NCBI GenBank assembly: GCA_029194535.1 | Contig: JARFXR010000001.1 | Span: forward strand, 1,744,721 to 1,808,720 | Length of the DNA stretch: 64,000 nucleotides | Source: Nitrospira sp. | Lineage (GTDB): Bacteria; Nitrospirota; Nitrospiria; Nitrospirales; Nitrospiraceae | Direction of reading: 5' to 3' | Shown: positions 41,754 to 63,169 of the stretch, one piece after another | Layout: each line of letters begins with the position of its first letter | Position numbering within the stretch: the first letter of the stretch is position 1 | The notes under the pieces: model-generated | What the model saw: only the letters and a program-made list of their open reading frames with translations | Databases searched by the model: none | Told to the model about the DNA's origin: nothing | Program-made: the position numbers and the translations under genes

Positions 41754-41956
41754 CAGGCTGTTGACAAAGTCCGCCAGCGGCGTTCTCGCATCGTTCAGAG
41801 GCTCAACGTACAGAACGGAGTACGATTCGCCTCTTCGCTCGCTGCGGCCTTGCTGGACGGCCTTTCTGAACAGCCTGCAGGGCATACGGACGGCGTCCGT
41901 GACCTCAGACACGACTCCATTTCCGAAGTCATCACACAGCTGTCAACACACTGCTA
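41751..41956 (+). repeat. 206-bp repeat with internal 126-bp palindrome
   Basis: The outer ends TAGCAGGCTGTTGACA and TGTCAACACACTGCTA are inverted. The inner palindrome (41753-41878) begins GCAGGCTGTT and ends AACAGCCTGC, with the family centre CTCAACGTAC ... GTACG. An inverted, longer copy is at 40281-40598. Confidence 0.85.
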
Positions 41957-48137: not shown

Positions 48138-48998
48138 TTAAGGTAGACGCCTCGCCTCAAACTGCATGGGACTGACATAGCCCAGCGTCTGATGGAGGCG
48201 CCGTCGGTTGTAGAACACCTCGATGAATTCAAACACGGCCGCTTGCGCGTCTTCACGGGTATGAAACCGCTGCTCATGCACCAGTTCATTCTTGAGCGTG
48301 CTGAAGAAGCTTTCGACCACTGCGTTATCGAAACAGTTGCCCTTGCGACTCATGCTGGCGATCACGCCACGCTGAGCCAACAGGCGTTGGTAGGCCACAC
48401 TGGTATAGAGCGCCCCCTGATCGGAGTGATGAATGAGCCCGGGTGGCGGACACCGCTGTGCCAGCGCCATGTGCATCGCCTGGAGCGCGACGTGCTGATC
48501 GGGCTTGGCACTCATCGCCCAACCGATCACTCGCCGAGAATACAGATCTAAGATCACGGCGAGATATAGCCAGCCGGCGCGGGTCGCGATCGCGGTGAGA
48601 TCGCCCGCCCAAATGCGATTGCTGGCCGGGGCCACAAAGACCTGCCGGAGTCGGTTCGGCGCGGGCGGGGCAAACTCATGCCGTTCGATCGTCATGCGAA
48701 AGCGCCGAATGCGTTGCGCCAGAAGACCGTGTTGCCGCCGCAAGCGCGCCACGCGATGTCGGCCACACCGCACGCCGGCCAGCCGCAACGCCCGCCATAC
48801 CTTCACAGCACCGTAGCGCGCCTTCGTCTGTCGATGGAGTTCTTGGATCTGCTCGAGCAAACGCGCGTTGGCCGTCGCCCGCGCACTGGCGGGGCGCTGG
48901 CGCCAGGCATAGTAGCCGCTTCGGCTGACGCCCAGCGTGCGACACAACCCGGTGAGCCGGTATTCCGTGCGATGCGCCTGAATGAAGCGATATCTCAT
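48138..48998 (-). CDS. IS3-family transposase OrfB (copy 2)
   Basis: The 286-residue protein is identical in sequence to OrfB of copy 1, with the intact DDE core (WAGDLTAIATRAGW; HHSDQGALYTS; VVESFFSTLKNEL). The ATG at 48998 overlaps the orfA stop. Identity of the two copies points to recent transposition, or to conversion between them. Confidence 0.95.
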   Translation of the reverse strand: MRYRFIQAHRTEYRLTGLCRTLGVSRSGYYAWRQRPASARATANARLLEQIQELHRQTKARYGAVKVWRALRLAGVRCGRHRVARLRRQHGLLAQRIRRFRMTIERHEFAPPAPNRLRQVFVAPASNRIWAGDLTAIATRAGWLYLAVILDLYSRRVIGWAMSAKPDQHVALQAMHMALAQRCPPPGLIHHSDQGALYTSVAYQRLLAQRGVIASMSRKGNCFDNAVVESFFSTLKNELVHEQRFHTREDAQAAVFEFIEVFYNRRRLHQTLGYVSPMQFEARRLP

Positions 48999-49288
48999 GG
49001 CGACTCCCGCGCAAAGAACATCGCGGCTTTTTTTAAAATGTCGCGCTCCTCACGCAGCCGGGCATTCTCGCGTCGCAAGCGCGTGAGTTCATCGGCGCTG
49101 TGCGCGCGGCCGCCTTTGCCAGGGAACGCCGCCTCCCCAAAGTTCTCAATCTCGTGCTGCCATTTATAGAGGTGATTGCGTCGCAGGTCCAATTCTCGCG
49201 CGACGGCTGCTGCCGGTCGTCCCGATGACTTCCACAGTCGGACGGCCTCCAGCTTGAACTCTTTCGTGTATTGCTGTCGCTTCCCCAT
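48995..49288 (-). CDS. IS3-family transposase OrfA (copy 2)
   Basis: The 97-residue HTH protein is identical to OrfA of copy 1, with the coiled coil LTRLRRENARLREERDILKK at its end. The A7G frameshift site lies at 49026-49035. Confidence 0.95.
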   Translation of the reverse strand: MGKRQQYTKEFKLEAVRLWKSSGRPAAAVARELDLRRNHLYKWQHEIENFGEAAFPGKGGRAHSADELTRLRRENARLREERDILKKAAMFFARESP

Positions 49289-49429: not shown

Positions 49430-49618
49430 ATGGACTCGACCAAATTTAGCTATTGGCAGGACCAAGGCCAGTGGCTCGGCTACTTGCAAGACTATCCTGA
49501 TTACTGGACGCAAGGGGAGTCGCTCAAAGACCTGCAATCCCATCTTGGCGATCTGTACCGCGATGTCTCAAGCAGCGAAATCCCATCCGTCTTGTCGATA
49601 GCTAAGGTGGTATTATGA
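49430..49618 (+). CDS. HicB-like small antitoxin-type protein
   Basis: The 62-residue protein has the HicB N-terminal half: FSYWQDQGQWLGYLQDYPDY, WTQGESLKDLQSHLGDLYRD. It lacks the DNA-binding C-terminal domain. No HicA follows; instead its stop overlaps by 4 bp (ATGA) an antitoxin gene of another family. It begins at or next to the predicted transcription start. It may be an orphan antitoxin or regulator recruited into the operon. Confidence 0.75.
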   Translation: MDSTKFSYWQDQGQWLGYLQDYPDYWTQGESLKDLQSHLGDLYRDVSSSEIPSVLSIAKVVL

Positions 49619-49815
49619 GCAATGTGGAATCCATTGAGCAGCAGATTGAAAAACTCTCTCCCGACGAGCTTGCTGCTTTTCGCCGATGGTATGCAGTGTT
49701 CGACGCCGAGGTTTGGGACCGCCAATTCGAGGCCGATATGAAGGCCGGCAAGCTCGATGCGCTGGCTGAGAAGGCTCTTCGCGCCCATATCTCAGGCCAG
49801 TCGAAGCCGCTTTGA
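49615..49815 (+). CDS. Antitoxin of a RelE-like module
   Basis: The 66-residue acidic protein (ESIEQQIEKLSPDELAAFRR, FDAEVWDRQFEADMKAGKLD) belongs to a small family that I recall directly upstream of RelE-like toxins. It has no DNA-binding motif of its own. It overlaps both neighbours by 4 bp. A remnant of a relative is at 35234. Confidence 0.75.
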   Translation: MSNVESIEQQIEKLSPDELAAFRRWYAVFDAEVWDRQFEADMKAGKLDALAEKALRAHISGQSKPL

Positions 49816-50066
49816 TCCATCACGCCTCTCCTGATTTCTGGACCTGCTACAACGCATTGCCCGCTCCCATCCGTGAACAAGCGGATCGCGCCTTTGAACT
49901 CCTGAAAGCCAATCCCAAACACCCGTCATTGCATTTTAAACAAGTGGGCCGTTTCTGGTCTACCAGAGTCGGGCTCCAATATCGGGCAGTTGTGGTCGAA
50001 GCGCCGGACGGAATCGTCTGGTTTTGGATCGGGACCCACGCGGAGTACGACAGGGTGATTCGATAG
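49812..50066 (+). CDS. RelE-like toxin
   Basis: The 84-residue protein has the ParE/RelE fold: DFWTCYNALPAPIREQADRA, KHPSLHFKQVGRFWSTRVGL, QYRAVVVE and the terminal VWFWIGTHAEYDRVI. Its TTG start overlaps the antitoxin stop (TTGA). Together with the two genes before it this is a three-gene operon with two 4-bp overlaps. Confidence 0.8.
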   Translation: MIHHASPDFWTCYNALPAPIREQADRAFELLKANPKHPSLHFKQVGRFWSTRVGLQYRAVVVEAPDGIVWFWIGTHAEYDRVIR

Positions 50067-50252: not shown

Positions 50253-50440
50253 TGTCTGGCTGTTTGAGCGGGCATCCGGCCTTGTGTTTCTGCCGTTCAG
50301 GGCGAGGTCGCGTCCTGGCTCCGACAAGCGGCGAGGACTGTTTCCAGTTCCATCCTGCGTAGCATCGGATGGAACAAGTTTCGCAGTCGAGCAGTCGCGA
50401 CGCCGACGGCGGTTAACAAGAGACAGGCTTAGCGCAAGTA
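50253..50440 (+). repeat. Intergenic repeat unit between TA loci (copy R1)
   Basis: It shares long stretches with 51421-51600 and 52348-52650: GGTGTCTGGCTG.TTGAGCGG, CTTGTGTTTCTGC, a hairpin GTTCCATC ... GGATGGAAC and the tail GACGCCGACGGCGG..AACAAG. It lies between the three-gene TA operon and the next TA pair. Confidence 0.7.
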
Positions 50441-50478
50441 GCCCCGACTACTCTCCAGTAGTCGCTCCCTCTCTCTCC

Positions 50479-50772
50479 TTACCGATTAACGGCGACAGCC
50501 AGCCGGAATCCCAACGCGTGGAGAAGGGCTTCTAAGCTTCTAAATTCTGGATTGCCACGTTCAGAGAGCATCTTGTAAAGGCTTTCCCGGTTGAGCTTCG
50601 TTTTCTCGGCGAGCTGTGCGACGCCCCCTTGCGCCTCGGCGACGTTTCGTAACGCCAGCAGGAACAGCTCTGGATCGTCCTCCTCCAGCGCAGCATTCAA
50701 GTATTCTTCAGCTTCTCGCGCATTCCGCAGGTTCTCGATCAGGTCTGATTGATAGACTTTGCTCTTTCTCAT
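50479..50772 (-). CDS. HigA-type antidote protein (addiction module)
   Basis: The 97-residue protein has a short N-terminal helix (SDLIENLRNAREAEEYLNAA). An HTH of the Xre type follows (AQGGVAQLAEKTKLNRESLY, KMLSERGNPEFRSLEALLHA), the layout of the 'putative addiction module antidote' family. The ATG at 50772 overlaps the toxin stop. Toxin-first gene order, as in higBA. Confidence 0.88.
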   Translation of the reverse strand: MRKSKVYQSDLIENLRNAREAEEYLNAALEEDDPELFLLALRNVAEAQGGVAQLAEKTKLNRESLYKMLSERGNPEFRSLEALLHALGFRLAVAVNR

Positions 50773-51101
50773 GGCCGACTCCTGTAATCGCTCCAATAAC
50801 GTTTCGCTGTTTCGATATCCTTGGACTGCGCGTCCTTATCGCCTCCGCAGAGAAGTAGCAGGATCGTCTTCCCCTCTTGTCCGAAATACACTCGATAGCC
50901 AGGACCATAATCAATGCGGAGCTCTTGCACGCCGTCGCCTACAGTATGGCAATCCCCGAAGTTACCCAAGCTGACTCGATCCAACCGCACCCGAATCTTT
51001 GCACGTGTCCTCTGGTCTTGTAATGAATTCAGCCAATTGCTAAATGGCTCTCGGCCCTCTGCAGTGACATAGATCCGAAGCTCCTTGGGAGTAGCCTCCA
51101 C
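50769..51101 (-). CDS. HigB/RelE-type toxin (addiction module killer)
   Basis: The 110-residue protein shows ELRIYVTAEGREPFSNWLNS, RTRAKIRVRLDRVSLGNFGD, VQELRIDYGPGYRVYFGQEG, KTILLLLCGGDKDAQSKDIE and a terminal AKRYWSDY, all typical of this killer family. GTG 51101 lies directly after an inverted-repeat operator. It is the first gene of the TA operon. Confidence 0.9.
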   Translation of the reverse strand: MEATPKELRIYVTAEGREPFSNWLNSLQDQRTRAKIRVRLDRVSLGNFGDCHTVGDGVQELRIDYGPGYRVYFGQEGKTILLLLCGGDKDAQSKDIETAKRYWSDYRSRP

Positions 51102-51224: not shown

Positions 51225-51600
51225 TAGAGGGCCCACTGCTTTCGGGGCCGTTGCGGTTTGTGTTTCCGCCGTCAGTCCTCTCCACCCCTGAAACATTCAC
51301 GGCACTTAGAGCGGGAGTGGGGGCCTTCAGGTGCTAGGCGAGCATGACCGGAGGAGCGAGGTATCCGCCGAGGGTTGGCTGGGAAGGAAAACTGGAACTG
51401 ACACCATCATGTCTATCAAGAGGTGCCTGACAGCTTGAGCGGGCATAGGGCCTTGTGTTTCTGCTATTGTCGCGCTAACGCGGCATGCTCGGCAGGTGGC
51501 ATCACTGTCCGCAGTTCCATTCAAGCCTGCCTTGGAATGGAACAAGTTTCGATGCCAAGCGCCAGCGAAACTAACGGCAGCCAACAAGGCCCCGCCAGAG
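51225..51600 (+). repeat. Intergenic repeat unit between TA loci (copy R2)
   Basis: Positions ~51240-51420 match 52185-52345 at high identity (GTTTGTGTTTCCGCCGTCAG; CTAGGCGAGCATGACCGGAG; GGAGCGAGGTATCCGCCGAG). Positions 51421-51600 match R1 and R3. No protein is supported in it. Confidence 0.75.
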
Positions 51601-52141: not shown

Positions 52142-52184
52142 AGTGAGCAATCCTCTTGAATTTGTTTTCGGCTGTCAAGCTTGC

Positions 52185-52680
52185 GGTTTGTGTTTCCGCC
52201 GTCAGTCCTCTCCACCCCTGAAACATTCACGGCACTTAGAGCGGGAGTGGGGGCCTTGGGGTGCTAGGCGAGCATGACCGGAGGAGCGAGGTATCCGCCG
52301 AGGGCTGGCCGCGAAGGAAAGCTGGAACTGATCATTATGTCTATCAAGGGGTGTCTGGCTGCTTGAGCGGCATTGGGCCTTTGTTTCTGCTGTCGTCGCG
52401 CTGGCGCGTCCTGCTCGGGCAGCATCGATGTCCACAGTTCTCCTCTCTCCCCCCTAATGTTGGTAGGGGATGCCCGCTGCGTTCGCGGCCGTTGCGGCTT
52501 GTGTTTCCGCCGTTCAAGGCGCGATCGCGTTCTGGATCCGACAGGCGGCGAGGACTGTTTGCAGTTCCATCCTGCGTAGCATCGGATGGAACAAGTTCCG
52601 CAGCCGAGCGGTCGCGGCGCCGACGGCGGCCAACAAGGCGCAGGCTTAGCGAAAGCAGGGGCTTCCCATCTCCCTCCCGC
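52185..52680 (+). repeat. Intergenic repeat unit between TA loci (copy R3)
   Basis: It contains the 51240-51420 sequence again, then the R1/R2 unit, with an extra copy of the GTTTCCGCCGTTCAAGGCGC part. The hairpin GTTCCATCCTGCGTAGCATC / GGATGGAAC and the tail CGACGGCGGCCAACAAGGCG are well kept. It is the last unit before the radical SAM cluster. Confidence 0.75.
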
Positions 52681-52775
52681 TTGCATATTTTTCCCCCATC
52701 CCCGTACAATGTTTTCGCTTAACCCATCGTCATTCTTATTGGTTTCATCCGGTTTGCGAGAGGGATCGGGCCGGA

Positions 52776-52958
52776 ATGCGCATCGAATTCTCGAAGGGTG
52801 ACCGCGCCTCCCCCAGAATGCTGAAAACGACCTCCCGCGTCGTTCTCGGTTCGCCAACATCCTCAACGTACCCCAGAGGGTACGCCTCCGGTCTTGGCTC
52901 GCCTGTGGCCTTGCGGGATGCTGTTTTGAGCATTCTGGGAAGGGCCAGCTTTCGATGA
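52776..52958 (+). CDS. 60-codon frame containing a palindromic repeat, coupled to radical SAM gene
   Basis: The ATG opens MRIEFSKGDRASP; the following ~43 residues are translation of the palindromic element 52812-52939. The TGA overlaps the next ATG (ATGA). The first 12 residues nearly repeat those of the next gene (MKIEYSKGDRAS). Five of the seven differing codons encode the same amino acid. GAGAGGGATC lies upstream. Expression is uncertain. Confidence 0.35.
   Translation: MRIEFSKGDRASPRMLKTTSRVVLGSPTSSTYPRGYASGLGSPVALRDAVLSILGRASFR
52812..52939. repeat. ~125-bp palindromic repeat, copy C
   Basis: CCCAGAATGCTGAAAAC is inverted as GTTTTGAGCATTCTGGG. The centre CTCAACGTAC ... GTACGCCTC and CGTTCTCGGTTCGCC / GGCCTTGCGGG are shared with the copies at 41753, 60548 and 63048. 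Confidence 0.85.
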
Positions 52959-54859
52959 AGATCGAGTACTCGAAAGGCGACAGGGCTTCCAAAGAGCTGA
53001 TCCAGCTCCGCCGCAACACCTCCCTCGAAGCCAGCGGCCGGAAGATGAAGGTCATGCTCATCTTCCCGCCCGATTGGTACCCCTCCGAACCCTATCTCAG
53101 CCTCCCTTCCCTCACCGCCGTCCTCCGGAAGGCCGGCCACACCGTCGTTCAGAAAGACGTTAATTTGGAAATGTGGGACTGGTACTTCAGCGAGGATTTC
53201 CTCAAAAAGGTTCTTCGCCGGGTCCCCCAGCAGCTGGACCGTCTCCGCAAGCTTTCCAAGAAGCGAGATCTGGCCGACTATGAGATGGATGTTCAGATGG
53301 CGCTGTGTGACGTTACGCGCCAAAAGATCGACGACCTGATTAAGAAGGCTGGGCAGGCGAAGCGGATCGTGCGAGGAGAGGACAATTTCTATGATATCGA
53401 TAGGTTGGAATGGGCGATTCAAGTCTTCCGTGAGGTCACATCAACCATTTCGCTCGTCTATGCGCCGGCCCGCATCTGCATGCCGCCGATGGAGACGGAT
53501 CTCTCATACAAGGTCTACGCATCGAACGAAGTCATCGATGCGGTGAATGATCAACAAGTCAATGTTTACCGCGACGTGTTCGACCATCTCGTGAAACCGG
53601 CGATCGAGGCGGAGCAGCCGGACGTGATCGGGATCTCGATCGTCCTCCAGCAGCAGATCTTCTCCACCATGACCTTCTGCGCCTTGATCAAGCAGCACTT
53701 CCCCAATATCCACATCACGCTCGGCGGCAACACCGTCACCCGCCTGCGCGACGTGCTGCCCGAGTCGCCGCTGTTCCAGTACTTCGACAGCGCGGTGGTC
53801 TACGAAGGTGAAACGGCCTTCGTGCAGCTGGTTGAGGCGGTGGGGGCCAAGTGGGACCTTTCGCAAGTTCCCAACACCATCTATAAGGACGACAAGGGCG
53901 GCGTTTATGTTTCTGCCCTCAGCTATGCCGAGGACATGGCGGAACTCCCGCCGCCGGATTTCGACGGCTTGCCGCTGGAGAAGTATTTTGTGCCGACGAG
54001 GACGCTCCCGTACTTGGCGACGCGCGGCTGCTACTGGGGTCGTTGCGAATTCTGCGACCACGGCGAGGGCTACACGGCCGGCTACCGCTCGAAGAAGATT
54101 CAAGATGTGCTGGCGGAGATCAAGCACCTGCGCGACAAGTACGGCGCCCGGCATTTTCATTTCACCGACGAATCCTATCCGCCGGCCCTCTTCCGCAAGC
54201 TGGCTCGCGGGCTGGTCGACTCCAAGATGGACATCTACTGGACGACGCACATGCGCTTCGAGAAGAGCCTCTTGGAGGACGCCGTCTGGCAGGATGCGAA
54301 GGACTCGGGCTGCCGCTATCTGCACTTCGGCTACGAGTCGGGGGTCGAGCGGGTACTCCAGCTGATGGACAAGGCCACGACGACCGAGATCATGACCAAG
54401 CATCTGAAGTATACGGCGGAGGCCGGGATCTGGAACCATTGCATGGGCTTCTTCGGCTTTCCCGGCGAAACGAGTGAGGAAGCTTGGCAGTCGGTGCAGT
54501 TCCTCGAGCAGAACAAGAACTTCGTCCATTCGCTCGGCTTCGGCACCTTCGATCTGGGGCGGCACAATCCGGTGGCGAAGCATCCGGAGAAATGGGGCGT
54601 GACGGCCTACAAGAACCCGGAGTGGGACCTGGCGCTGGACTACTATTTCACTGTGAAGAACGGGATGAGCATCGAAGAGGCCGAACGGGTCTTCCAGGAA
54701 TTCGAGCGCAATCACTATGCAGGCTGGGATCTGCGCTTGTATATCAGGGAGTACATTTTCCTATATATCTGCAAATTCGGGTTGTCAAAGCTGCCGGATC
54801 TGCAGTATCGGGCTATGAAGACGGCGGGAGTCACGCCGACGCTGGCAGGAAAGATGTAG
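52955..54859 (+). CDS. B12-binding-type radical SAM protein 1
   Basis: The 634-residue protein has an N-terminal cobalamin-binding-like Rossmann domain (MKVMLIFPPDWYPSEPYLSL; GISIVLQQQIFSTMTFCALI; HITLGGNTVTRL). The radical SAM barrel has Cys359, Cys364 and Cys367 in RGCYWGRCEFCDHGEG (C-x4-C-x2-C). A C-terminal helical domain follows. Such enzymes do methylations or rearrangements on unreactive carbons. The start at 52955 gives an N-terminal extension that also exists in the paralogue; 53045 is possible. Substrate unknown. Confidence 0.88.
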   Translation: MKIEYSKGDRASKELIQLRRNTSLEASGRKMKVMLIFPPDWYPSEPYLSLPSLTAVLRKAGHTVVQKDVNLEMWDWYFSEDFLKKVLRRVPQQLDRLRKLSKKRDLADYEMDVQMALCDVTRQKIDDLIKKAGQAKRIVRGEDNFYDIDRLEWAIQVFREVTSTISLVYAPARICMPPMETDLSYKVYASNEVIDAVNDQQVNVYRDVFDHLVKPAIEAEQPDVIGISIVLQQQIFSTMTFCALIKQHFPNIHITLGGNTVTRLRDVLPESPLFQYFDSAVVYEGETAFVQLVEAVGAKWDLSQVPNTIYKDDKGGVYVSALSYAEDMAELPPPDFDGLPLEKYFVPTRTLPYLATRGCYWGRCEFCDHGEGYTAGYRSKKIQDVLAEIKHLRDKYGARHFHFTDESYPPALFRKLARGLVDSKMDIYWTTHMRFEKSLLEDAVWQDAKDSGCRYLHFGYESGVERVLQLMDKATTTEIMTKHLKYTAEAGIWNHCMGFFGFPGETSEEAWQSVQFLEQNKNFVHSLGFGTFDLGRHNPVAKHPEKWGVTAYKNPEWDLALDYYFTVKNGMSIEEAERVFQEFERNHYAGWDLRLYIREYIFLYICKFGLSKLPDLQYRAMKTAGVTPTLAGKM

Positions 54860-54861
54860 TA

Positions 54862-54896
54862 GGGGACAGGCTCCGCGCTTCGCGGTGCCTGTCCCC
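54862..54896. repeat. Short REP hairpin (GGGGACAGGC / GCCTGTCCCC)
   Basis: GGGGACAGGC, then CCGCG CTT CGCGG, then GCCTGTCCCC form a nearly perfect 16-bp stem 3 bases after the radical SAM stop. No T-run follows; it could stabilise the transcript end or attenuate the downstream paralogue. Confidence 0.85.
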
Positions 54897-54968
54897 GTTA
54901 AGAAAGTGGGATCTGGAAACAGGACAGTCCCCGATCGGAAGGGCGACAGTCCCCGAGTGGGAAAGGTT

Positions 54969-56930
54969 ATGAGCGCTAACGGACTCGTACAGATTGAAGG
55001 CCTGACCCCAATCAAGAGGGAAGATCGGAAGTCTTCGAAGGTCATGCTGCTCTTTCCGCCCGAGTGGGTGCCGACGGCGCCCTATTTGGCGCTGCCGTCG
55101 CTGACGGCGGTGTTGCGCGGAGCGGGACATACCGTCATCCAGCGCGACATCAACATCGAGATGTACGACCACTTCTTCACGACCGAGTTCCTGATCTGGG
55201 TGCGCGCGCGGCAGTCGATGCAGCTCAAGGCGATCCAGATGAAAGAGAAGCGGGGAGAGCTGACGGATCACGAGGCCGGGCAGCTGGCCCTGCTGGAGCA
55301 GGCCATGACGCTCGACGTGTTCGATCTGGCAGCCAGGGCGGAAGACGCCAAGGCGGTGGTCCGGGGCGAACGGTTCTACCAGGCGGACAAGCTGGAGTGG
55401 GCGCTCAATACCTTCCGCGAGGCGATGCAGTTCATCTCCGCCGCCTACTATCCGGCCTCGCTGGTCTTCTATCCGATGGAAAGCAACCTCGGCTACCGGC
55501 CCGGCGTCTCCAAGGAACTCCTGGCCTGTCTCGACGACGAACAGGTGAACGTCTATCGCGACATCTGCAATCAGCTGGTGTTGCCGTCGGTCAGCAAGGA
55601 GAAGCCATCCGTCGTCGGCATTTCGATCGGGACGCAGATGCAGCTCATCGCAGGTATGACCTTCTGCAAGATGATCAAGGAGACGTTCCCGCACGTGCAC
55701 GTGGTGGTCGGCGGCAACGTGATTACGAGATTGCAGGAAGAGCTGCCGCATCACGAGAGGTTATTCTCTGAAGTCTTTGATTCTGCTATTCTTTATGAAG
55801 GAGAACATGCGCTGCTCTGGCTGGTGGAGGCCTTGAACGGGCAACGGGACATGGCCTCGGTGCCCAACTTGATGTACCGCAATGCCACCGGCGTGCAGCA
55901 GAACAAGGAAGTCTATACGGAGAAGACGACGGCACTGCCGATTCCCGACTTCGACGGCTTCCCGCTAGACCACTACTTTGTCCCGGAGCGGATCATTCCC
56001 TACCTCGCGACACGCGGCTGCTATTGGGGACGCTGCACCTTCTGCGATCACGGGCAGGGGTATTTCGACCAGTACCGGGGCATGACGGCGCAGTTGGTCG
56101 TCGAGCAGGTGAAGGCCTTGCGCGATAAATACCAGTGCCGGCACTTCCTCTTTTCGGACGAGTCTTATCCGCCGGCGCTGTTCAAGAAGGTCTCGCAGAT
56201 GCTGGTTGATCAGAACGTCGGCATCAAATGGACCACGCTGATCCGGTTCGAGGAGACGTTACAGGACCAGGCCGTGTGGGATCTCGCCGCAAAGGCCGGC
56301 TGCTGCACCCTCTATTATGGTATGGAGTCGGCGAACGAGCGCGTGCTCAATCTGATGGACAAACACGCCAAGAAGAGCGTGATTCAGAACAACCTGCACC
56401 AGGCAGCGAAGGCGGGTATCTGGAACCATGTGATGGCCTTCTATGGCTTCCCCGGTGAAACCCGTGACGAGGCGCTGGAGACCAGGCAGTTTGTTATCGA
56501 CAACCAGCCGGTGATCCATTCGGTCGAGCTGTTCTACTTCGTGGCCTACCGGCACACGCCGATGGTGCGCAATCCGGAGAAGTTCGGCATCACGATCCAT
56601 AAGCAGGAGGAATACGACCTTCCGCTGGACTATTACTACACGTTGAATGAGCCGACGGGTATCTCTTGCATGGACGCGATGCAGCTCTGCGAGGAGTTCT
56701 ACAAGAACGACTTCCAGCCCTGGGCCGTCCGCGTAAACGCCCGCGAGCACGTGTTCCTCTATATCTCCAAGTTCGGGACGAACAAGCTGCCGCAGATCTA
56801 TGCGCAGCGCCAAACGGTCGGCGCATCGGACAGTGTTTCAGGTCTGGTGACGTGGCCCGTTTCTATGGGTGAGGGAGAGGACGGTAAGGAGGGGATGAGC
56901 CGGGTGATGAGTCACGGGGTCGGTGGCTAG
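54969..56930 (+). CDS. B12-binding-type radical SAM protein 2
   Basis: The 653-residue paralogue has the same order: KVMLLFPPEWVPTAPYLALP, GISIGTQMQLIAGMTFCKMI, VHVVVGGNVITRL, then Cys351, Cys356 and Cys359 in RGCYWGRCTFCDHGQG, and VMAFYGFPGETRDEAL. Both proteins keep the unusual C-x4-C spacing. The start at 54969 follows GGGAAAGG; the frame is open to 54885. The last ~35 residues are Gly/Met-rich and beyond the paralogue's end. It probably works on the same pathway as protein 1. Confidence 0.88.
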   Translation: MSANGLVQIEGLTPIKREDRKSSKVMLLFPPEWVPTAPYLALPSLTAVLRGAGHTVIQRDINIEMYDHFFTTEFLIWVRARQSMQLKAIQMKEKRGELTDHEAGQLALLEQAMTLDVFDLAARAEDAKAVVRGERFYQADKLEWALNTFREAMQFISAAYYPASLVFYPMESNLGYRPGVSKELLACLDDEQVNVYRDICNQLVLPSVSKEKPSVVGISIGTQMQLIAGMTFCKMIKETFPHVHVVVGGNVITRLQEELPHHERLFSEVFDSAILYEGEHALLWLVEALNGQRDMASVPNLMYRNATGVQQNKEVYTEKTTALPIPDFDGFPLDHYFVPERIIPYLATRGCYWGRCTFCDHGQGYFDQYRGMTAQLVVEQVKALRDKYQCRHFLFSDESYPPALFKKVSQMLVDQNVGIKWTTLIRFEETLQDQAVWDLAAKAGCCTLYYGMESANERVLNLMDKHAKKSVIQNNLHQAAKAGIWNHVMAFYGFPGETRDEALETRQFVIDNQPVIHSVELFYFVAYRHTPMVRNPEKFGITIHKQEEYDLPLDYYYTLNEPTGISCMDAMQLCEEFYKNDFQPWAVRVNAREHVFLYISKFGTNKLPQIYAQRQTVGASDSVSGLVTWPVSMGEGEDGKEGMSRVMSHGVGG

Positions 56931-59614: not shown

Positions 59615-60547
59615 ATGGAGTCCGAACGTCGCTCGCTGAAGTTCTACCAGGCCGATGTGTTCACGACGCAACCCTTCGGCGGCAATCCGGTCGCGGTCTT
59701 TCCCGACGCGAAGGGACTGTCTGACGACGAGCTGCAGCAGATCGCCCGGGAGATGAACCTGTCCGAAACCGTGTTCGTCTTTCCGCCTTTCGATCCCGCC
59801 GCGGTCGTGAGGCTCCGCATCTTCACGCCGACGCAGGAAATTCCCTTCGCAGGCCATCCGGTCGTGGGCACGATGTTCGTCCTGACGACGCTGGGACTGA
59901 TTGCCGCCACCGAGCCGGTTACCCGCGTCGTGCAGGAGTGCAACATCGGACTCTTCCCTGTCGACCTACATGTGCGCGCCGGCCGCGTGCTCCGCGTCGT
60001 CATGACGCAGCCGGCTCCTCAGTTTCTTGAGACTGTGGACGACACCGAAGACCTCTATAAAGTCTCCAATGCGCTCGGCATCGCCAAGCATGCGATCACC
60101 GATGCGAAATGGCCGTTGGAAGTCGTCTCGACCGGGCTGCCGGTGCTGATCGTGCCGGTTCGGACTCTGACGGCGGTTCGCTCGATCGAGCCGGATTCGT
60201 CGGCCATCATCGAGCTGTGCCGGCAGTTCGGCGCCAACGGCCTGATGGTGTTCACGACGATCACGGTCGAATCGTTCGCCACGGTCCATGCGCGGATGTT
60301 TGCGCCGTCCATCGGCATCATCGAGGATCCGGCGACGGGGAGTGCCGCCGGGGCTCTGGGCTCGTACCTGGTGCACCATGGCGTGGTCGACGTCGGCCCG
60401 ATGACCGAGATCACGATCGAGCAGGGTTATGAGATCGAACGGCCTTCACGGATTCTGGTGCAGGTGGAATCGGACGACGATGTGATTCAGGCGGTGAAGG
60501 TGGGGGGGCAGTGTGTAATGGTGGTGGAAGGGACGTTGAATTTTTAG
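59615..60547 (+). CDS. PhzF-family isomerase/epimerase-like protein
   Basis: The 310-residue protein has the PhzF (DapF-like) fold: LKFYQADVFTTQPFGGNPVA, catalytic Glu in MNLSETVFVFPP, RIFTPTQEIPFAGHPVVGT and the C-terminal IEDPATGSAAGALGSYL. PhzF proteins isomerise small acids. ATG 59615 is chosen over GTG 59603. Its TAG is directly followed by palindromic repeat D. Confidence 0.92.
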   Translation: MESERRSLKFYQADVFTTQPFGGNPVAVFPDAKGLSDDELQQIAREMNLSETVFVFPPFDPAAVVRLRIFTPTQEIPFAGHPVVGTMFVLTTLGLIAATEPVTRVVQECNIGLFPVDLHVRAGRVLRVVMTQPAPQFLETVDDTEDLYKVSNALGIAKHAITDAKWPLEVVSTGLPVLIVPVRTLTAVRSIEPDSSAIIELCRQFGANGLMVFTTITVESFATVHARMFAPSIGIIEDPATGSAAGALGSYLVHHGVVDVGPMTEITIEQGYEIERPSRILVQVESDDDVIQAVKVGGQCVMVVEGTLNF

Positions 60548-60670
60548 CAGGATGATGAAAACGCCATCTAACTTCGTTCTCGGTCGCTACAACCCCTCGA
60601 CGTACAGCAATGAGTACGCCTCGGGGTTTCGTTCCCTGCGGCCTTGTTACATGGCGTTTTGATCATCCTG
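60548..60670. repeat. ~125-bp palindromic repeat, copy D
   Basis: CAGGATGATGAAAACGCCAT is inverted as ATGGCGTTTTGATCATCCTG. The centre CCTCGACGTACAGCAATGAG / TACGCCTCGGGG belongs to the family. It begins one base after the PhzF stop and may act as its terminator. Confidence 0.88.
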
Positions 60671-60882
60671 GCGGAACGCGCGCATGGGGAAGAGCCGCGT
60701 CTCGGCGCGGGTCAGGGCTTGGGTGGGTGAGAATGACGCCCGCTCGCCGCCACCCGGTTCAGAAACTCTTTGGGGGAGGAGAGGCGGCTGAACCTCGGCA
60801 CAGGTCGTGTGTTGAGTCCTGAGCTAGGAAATCAGCACCGCCTGCCTCACTCAGCACTCACCACTCTGCGCAGAGGACTGTT

Positions 60883-63040: not shown

Positions 63041-63047
63041 ATCGTCC

Positions 63048-63169
63048 AGGATGCTGAAAATGGCTTGTTGCTTTGTTCTCGCATCGCTCAGCCCCTCAAC
63101 GTACCGAAAAACGTACGACTCGGGGCTTCGCTTGCTGCGGCCTCGCTACAGGACCATTTTGAGCATCCT
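63048..63169. repeat. ~125-bp palindromic repeat, copy E
   Basis: AGGATGCTGAAAATGG is inverted as CCATTTTGAGCATCCT. The centre CCTCAACGTAC ... GTACGACTCGGGGC is shared. It separates moaB from the upstream ferredoxin gene on the same strand. Confidence 0.88.

Follow-up and report, generated by a model that had tools for sequence, protein, structure and literature searches.

A doubled gene start in front of a radical SAM gene of Nitrospira is probably a product of recombination

The stretch of Nitrospira sp. DNA analysed here (64,000 nucleotides, referred to as the window) contains a gene for a radical SAM protein that appears to begin twice, with a palindromic repeat separating two homologous starts. 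How did this gene come to have a second start, and which of the two now makes the enzyme? The sequence statements of the initial annotation all hold: the reading frames begin with MRIEFSKGDRAS at the ATG of 52776 and with MKIEYSKGDRAS at that of 52955, the two 36-bp starts have 26 of 36 bases in common (72% DNA identity, with 10 differences) and agree in 10 of 12 residues, and the frame opened by the first ATG stays open through the repeat, running for 60 codons until a TGA (52956–52958) which overlaps the second ATG. The duplication is also old, as had been proposed. Its origin can be read differently, and we consider it likely that the front end of this gene is a chimaera made by recombination. 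The front copy would most likely be a displaced start that supplies the promoter and, probably, a short upstream open reading frame (ORF), with the enzyme being made from the downstream start. The features of the locus, in order, are:

52681–52710, plus strand: promoter-like pair TTGCAT, 18 nt, TACAAT, recognised by the consensus of 100 orthologous leaders.
52711–52775, plus strand: leader of the displaced start, with a conserved TAACCC motif and GAGAGGGA as a possible ribosome site.
52776–52811, plus strand: displaced copy of the 5' start, codons 1–12 (MRIEFSKGDRAS), with codon 5 changed from Tyr to Phe, identified by sequence and profile match.
52776–52958, plus strand: upstream ORF of 60 codons, made of codons 1–12 and the repeat, with a stop that overlaps the real start (ATGA).
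52812–52939, no strand assigned: REP/MITE-like palindromic repeat, of a dispersed family of about 125 bp, identified by sequence, folding and copies.
52937–52954, plus strand: short junction GGGAAGGGCCAGCTTTCG, which contains the probable ribosome site of the real gene.
52955–54859, plus strand: working gene for a B12-binding-domain radical SAM protein of 634 aa (MKIEYSKGDRAS...), identified by orthologues in near genomes.
54885–56930, plus strand: paralogous B12-binding-domain radical SAM gene, next in the row, given for context only.

Genomes assembled independently, among them G075 (one contig of 4.1 Mb), have the same layout, and this recurrence rules out an assembly artefact as its source. 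NCBIfam models match the radical SAM protein far below their cut-offs and the reaction of the enzyme was therefore left unassigned. Two pairs of long direct repeats lie 5' of the gene, one at 50259–50441 and 52476–52658 (183 nt, 84%) and the other at 51251–51401 and 52181–52331 (151 nt, 96%); sequence resembling the 183-nt repeat is visible just 5' of the promoter in several relatives. The region 5' of the radical SAM genes also holds an IS3-like transposase pair, named from translation only (48138–49288), and toxin-antitoxin (TA) genes (49615–50063 and 50479–51101) of the types that lie between gene-start copies in relatives.

We gathered orthologues of the gene from Nitrospiraceae and compared 110 loci with upstream DNA, seeking extra starts with a profile of leader plus start. 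G056, G093 and G177 were excluded from the count of extra starts, as they match the leader only or do not translate. The usual state, seen in most of the loci, is one start behind a conserved promoter, and G001 and G003, both of the same genus as the window, have a single start and no repeat. A second, truncated start is present upstream in 23 of the 110 loci, the front copy being absent from the other 87 while the enzyme is kept. The real start is intact and its Tyr5 invariant throughout (110/110). This comparison with relatives, which the initial annotation had proposed, largely returned the outcome named there as speaking against its own readings, namely one-copy relatives and decay of the other copy.

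Two kinds of end are seen in the truncated copies, one at codon 12 and usually at a REP, the other around codon 31 or beyond. Among the codon-12 remnants, those of G000 (the genome of the window), G021, G075, G082, G092, G141 and G149 share one layout, consisting of promoter, 12 codons, REP, 16–22 nt and real start; the others are those of G076, G143, G179 and G180, and of G048, G062a, G074 and G113. Remnants which end from about codon 31 onwards occur in G004, G072, G146, G165 (two), G168 and G174. The start copies are usually separated by REP repeats and/or TA genes, and several spacers carry the latter (ParE-like toxins recognised by Pfam, antitoxins by position). Three successive starts are seen at L265 (G165), with truncated copies at about -2350 and about -850 followed by the real one, and TA and DUF5674 genes between them. 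At L210 (G160), at about -2264, a displaced start that has lost its ATG continues in frame into the C-terminal part of an antitoxin gene.

The initial annotation had suggested, as one possibility, that insertion of the repeat made the duplication. In a simple account of this kind, a REP would have landed in codon 12 and its insertion would have doubled about 36 bp of the start, both copies then being inherited vertically and drifting apart. Mobility of REP families is known from other bacteria, the position of the repeat is always codon 12 and its orientation always the same, and starts that are only 72% identical are as expected of old copies. However, truncated extra starts occur without this repeat (G146, G165 and G174), and in G048 and G113 codons 12–31 of the remnant resume after the repeat, which shows that it sits within an older truncated copy. 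The sequences 5' of the two starts are unrelated (GGCCGG versus GGGCCAGCTTTCG), unlike a short target duplication, the layout is scattered over the gene tree, and the front copy of G092 continues a local leader resembling that of G091 while its second start is foreign. We therefore rejected target-site duplication by REP insertion, on the strength of the repeat-free extra starts, the G092 mosaic and the scatter over the tree, and hold this account of the locus to be improbable.

The repeat itself has both features of a REP/MITE-like dispersed palindromic element, namely many copies and a single hairpin. Its arms (52812–52838 and 52913–52939) are 27 nt each and 85% complementary, and the RNA of this stretch folds into one long hairpin of -65.7 kcal/mol (z -4.6). 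A search of its own genome returned 33 matches at E<=10, about 20 of them below E=0.01, and first-look candidates number dozens to hundreds of copies in relatives; many copies start just after a stop codon or TA dinucleotide. Further copies in the window lie at 60547–60671, 63047–63169 and 41754–41878, the first of which starts directly at a TAG stop. We found no match for the repeat in Rfam up to E=1. Plasmid and phage collections also gave no match. The four Y1_Tnp loci of the genome have no convincing copy beside them (best repeat match E 0.07), and the element is for this reason named REP/MITE-like rather than a RAYT-mobilised REP. Like the REP, REPIN and MITE families described in other work (PMC3116915, PMC6006769), it is short, dispersed, strongly palindromic and often placed right after stop codons; it differs from them in its length, about 125 bp being longer than a classical REP, and in the lack of an adjoining Y1 transposase gene with a convincing copy. 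In the window the repeat lies at a gene junction and probably takes part in recombination. The window REP shares 91% identity with REPs of the same locus in other genera, as opposed to 72–80% with the matches listed from its own genome, and same-locus REPs of types B and C match each other best, a kinship that is only indicative since the unlinked copies compared were picked by similarity.

The order of events is suggested by genomes with longer arrangements. In G076 and G180 a remnant, a REP, a second promoter and the real start follow each other within about 450 nt. The seven window-type genomes lack the second promoter and leader, with 16–22 nt separating the end of the REP from the real ATG, and therefore the window type would most simply be a deletion or exchange product of the longer type. 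The junction before the real start is common to the other six genomes of this layout (GGAAGGGCTAGCTCTCG).

The seven genomes need seven changes on a tree of the gene body (nt 121–1260), each lying among genomes without the layout. A single old origin followed by many losses through recombination would fit this tree count almost as well as repeated gain. Over nt 1–120 of the gene, six of the seven (the window excepted) mostly have another group member as their nearest sequence, whereas their leaders and gene bodies usually lie closest to non-members. G092 (Nitrospira sp. RSF1, locus L109) is the plainest example, with a leader 96% identical to that of the repeat-free G091. The two sequences are the same over the 57 nt before the front start and through codon 4, after which G092 has the codon 5 of the group; in the gene they are only 70–77% identical over nt 1–60 and 93–100% identical over nt 60–180. 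The exchanged piece can thus be bounded at codon 5 of the front copy on one side and near codon 20 of the gene on the other. In L109/L269 (G092) the radical SAM match exceeds the usual length by 75 nt, and residue 189 is where the best open match begins, which suggests that this gene carries an insertion or internal frame break. In G090 (L224) the right half of a REP, the junction and the start directly follow the stop of a cysD-like gene (named from translation); this hybrid REP is as expected from exchange and may be a sign of REP–REP recombination moving the gene or its front end. As for the window, its leader is about 73% like all others and its first 60 gene bases score 0.73 to members versus 0.72 to non-members; breakpoints are no longer visible and its history is therefore drawn from the other genomes.

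Codon 5 may provide a further trace of this exchange. It encodes Tyr in all 110 real starts, as it does in 7 of 7 remnants extending past codon 12, whereas 15 of the 16 codon-12 remnants joined to a REP or an antitoxin have Phe, Leu or Ser there (52788–52790 in the window). Fisher values of 3e-5 and 2e-18 were obtained for these contrasts, from counts that are not independent because of shared ancestry. This change may mark one ancestral remnant which recombined with native leaders just left of codon 5, a reading that is not fully explained since codon 5 itself varies among the remnants (TTC, TTA, TTG, TCA and TCG). A more active version would have the unit of start codons 5–12, REP, junction and new start act as a homing-like cassette that invades intact alleles of this gene across Nitrospira, using the start copy as its left homology arm and leaving the host's own start as an upstream ORF that tunes the enzyme; we regard this as distinctly unlikely.

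If the front end is a recombinant, as we favour, the question becomes what the front copy does. A model of leader plus start matches the window at 52669–52811 (nhmmer; model positions 12–163; E 9e-20), and the consensus leader of the orthologues comprises TTGCAT-18-TACAAT and the TAACCC motif. A listing of promoters by the general consensus gave none, and the pair is weak by that measure. The pair now lies 5' of the front start, with no second copy between repeat and real gene, and in all seven genomes of this layout the motif is found about 280 nt 5' of the real start, with none within 140 nt. Because no other promoter motif precedes the gene, the promoter and leader of the front copy are very probably functional.

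A role for the front copy in regulation was also considered. Front copy and REP could form an upstream ORF which controls the enzyme by translational coupling, with ribosomes melting the hairpin and restarting at the ATGA, and this would be why the layout persists. The frame is open in 7/7 window-type genomes (44–62 codons), the hairpin described above adjoins the ribosome site, and the only recognised promoter is 5' of the front start. However, the stop lies anywhere from -47 to +4 relative to the real ATG across the seven; it overlaps that ATG, in ATGA fashion, only in G000 and G021 (2/7), and falls 46–47 nt before it in three genomes and 17 nt before it in two, so that the conserved stop/start overlap of a translationally coupled leader is lacking. 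Nor is coding bias significant in the repeat-encoded codons (third positions account for 7 of 14 changes, p=0.25, in an uncontrolled test), although the pooled N/S of this part is 0.45 in the reading frame and above 2 in the others, and most relatives do without the layout altogether. Such a function is possible for the window and G021, where stop and start overlap; as a general explanation of the layout, regulation by coupling seems to us doubtful.

The initial annotation had also raised the possibility that both peptides were kept and, as an alternative, that a small peptide gene stands before the enzyme, with a substrate for the radical SAM enzymes as a speculative reading. The product of such a gene might be a substrate or a partner of the radical SAM proteins. 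In favour of this, the first 12 codons keep their start codon and most residues in the seven genomes, and the closest NCBIfam models, far below cut-off as noted, include B12 radical SAM enzymes that modify RiPPs. The N/S of these codons is 0.41 in the front copy versus 0.07 in the real start of the same genomes, and this degree of conservation is accounted for if the front copy once served as the start of the gene in each lineage. Beyond these codons the peptide consists of repeat sequence, and its ends vary. In other genomes the ATG of the front copy is gone (G160), or the copy has been joined to a piece of an antitoxin. The variable stops, the lost ATG, the change of an invariant Tyr and the repeat-encoded part without significant constraint all speak against retention of two peptides. 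A RiPP-like precursor would be conserved with its enzyme, and the absence of the front copy from 87 of 110 enzyme loci, two of them in the same genus, leaves a peptide substrate unsupported; we consider this reading extremely improbable.

Displaced gene ends are known from other systems. The dusA-targeting islands insert at the 5' end of a housekeeping gene, where a remnant stays behind and the gene is made whole by a new promoter and a new 5' coding end (PMC4482086). A site-specific element of this integrase type, inserting at the 5' end of the radical SAM gene and bringing a replacement 5' end, would account for the old end kept as a remnant with a new end in place, and for the recurrent ends at codon 12 and about codon 31. 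The islands, however, have an integrase and one fixed site, and neither was found here: no recombinase was recognised between start copies among the selected spacer ORFs (TA, DUF5674 and REP only), remnant lengths are several (codon 12, about codon 31 and longer), and the spacers are TA genes or, in the window type, the 125-bp REP alone. Membership in the dusA-type islands was accordingly rejected, and an element of this kind is in our view very unlikely.

Another known case is that of the T6SS effector and Rhs loci, in which gene ends are displaced by homology-facilitated illegitimate recombination: an incoming module anchors by homology on one side, displaces the old sequence and leaves orphan ends, with arrays building up as such events recur (PMC5361080). 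In those toxin loci the displaced parts are 3' ends and immunity genes, whereas here a metabolic gene has its promoter and 5' end displaced, and REPs have inserted in the remnants. A homologous junction is present, G092 and G091 being 93–100% identical from about nt 60, and the junctions between codon ~31 and the TA cassette look non-homologous. Membership in this class cannot be proved, as proof would need both donor and empty site, and these were not found for any one event.

Taken together, these comparisons allow a sequence of steps to be proposed. An ancestor would have gained a truncated extra copy of promoter, leader and the first ~31 codons, with a TA cassette between the copies, probably through a homologous junction of incoming DNA within the gene and an illegitimate one on the opposite side. 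A REP would then have come to lie in the truncated copy after codon 12, as shown in G048 and G113. One lineage may next have lost the second promoter and leader, by deletion or exchange, fusing promoter, 12 codons and REP 16–22 nt before the real start. This fused piece would have passed between lineages by homologous recombination, with the copied start as one arm and the 5' part of the gene as the other; such passage is shown in G092, strongly suggested in five others and inferred for the window. At present, the old promoter would drive one mRNA on which the first start codon opens a short ORF into the REP hairpin, while the enzyme would be translated from the second start (GGGAAGGG, ATG 52955). 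As the stop of this ORF overlaps the real ATG in the window, re-initiation by coupling could occur but is unproven.

In a conserved metabolic gene, the front end, comprising promoter, leader and initial codons, thus appears to have been displaced repeatedly, and 23 of the 110 loci keep old starts like fossils. The tails of toxin genes and integrase islands are known to follow the same logic; here it operates without a recognised integrase. Such displacement creates upstream ORFs and altered leaders, which annotation pipelines can mistake for small genes or a wrong start. Few genetic tools exist for Nitrospira, which are major nitrifiers, and natural allele exchange that can be read from genomes is therefore useful in these bacteria.
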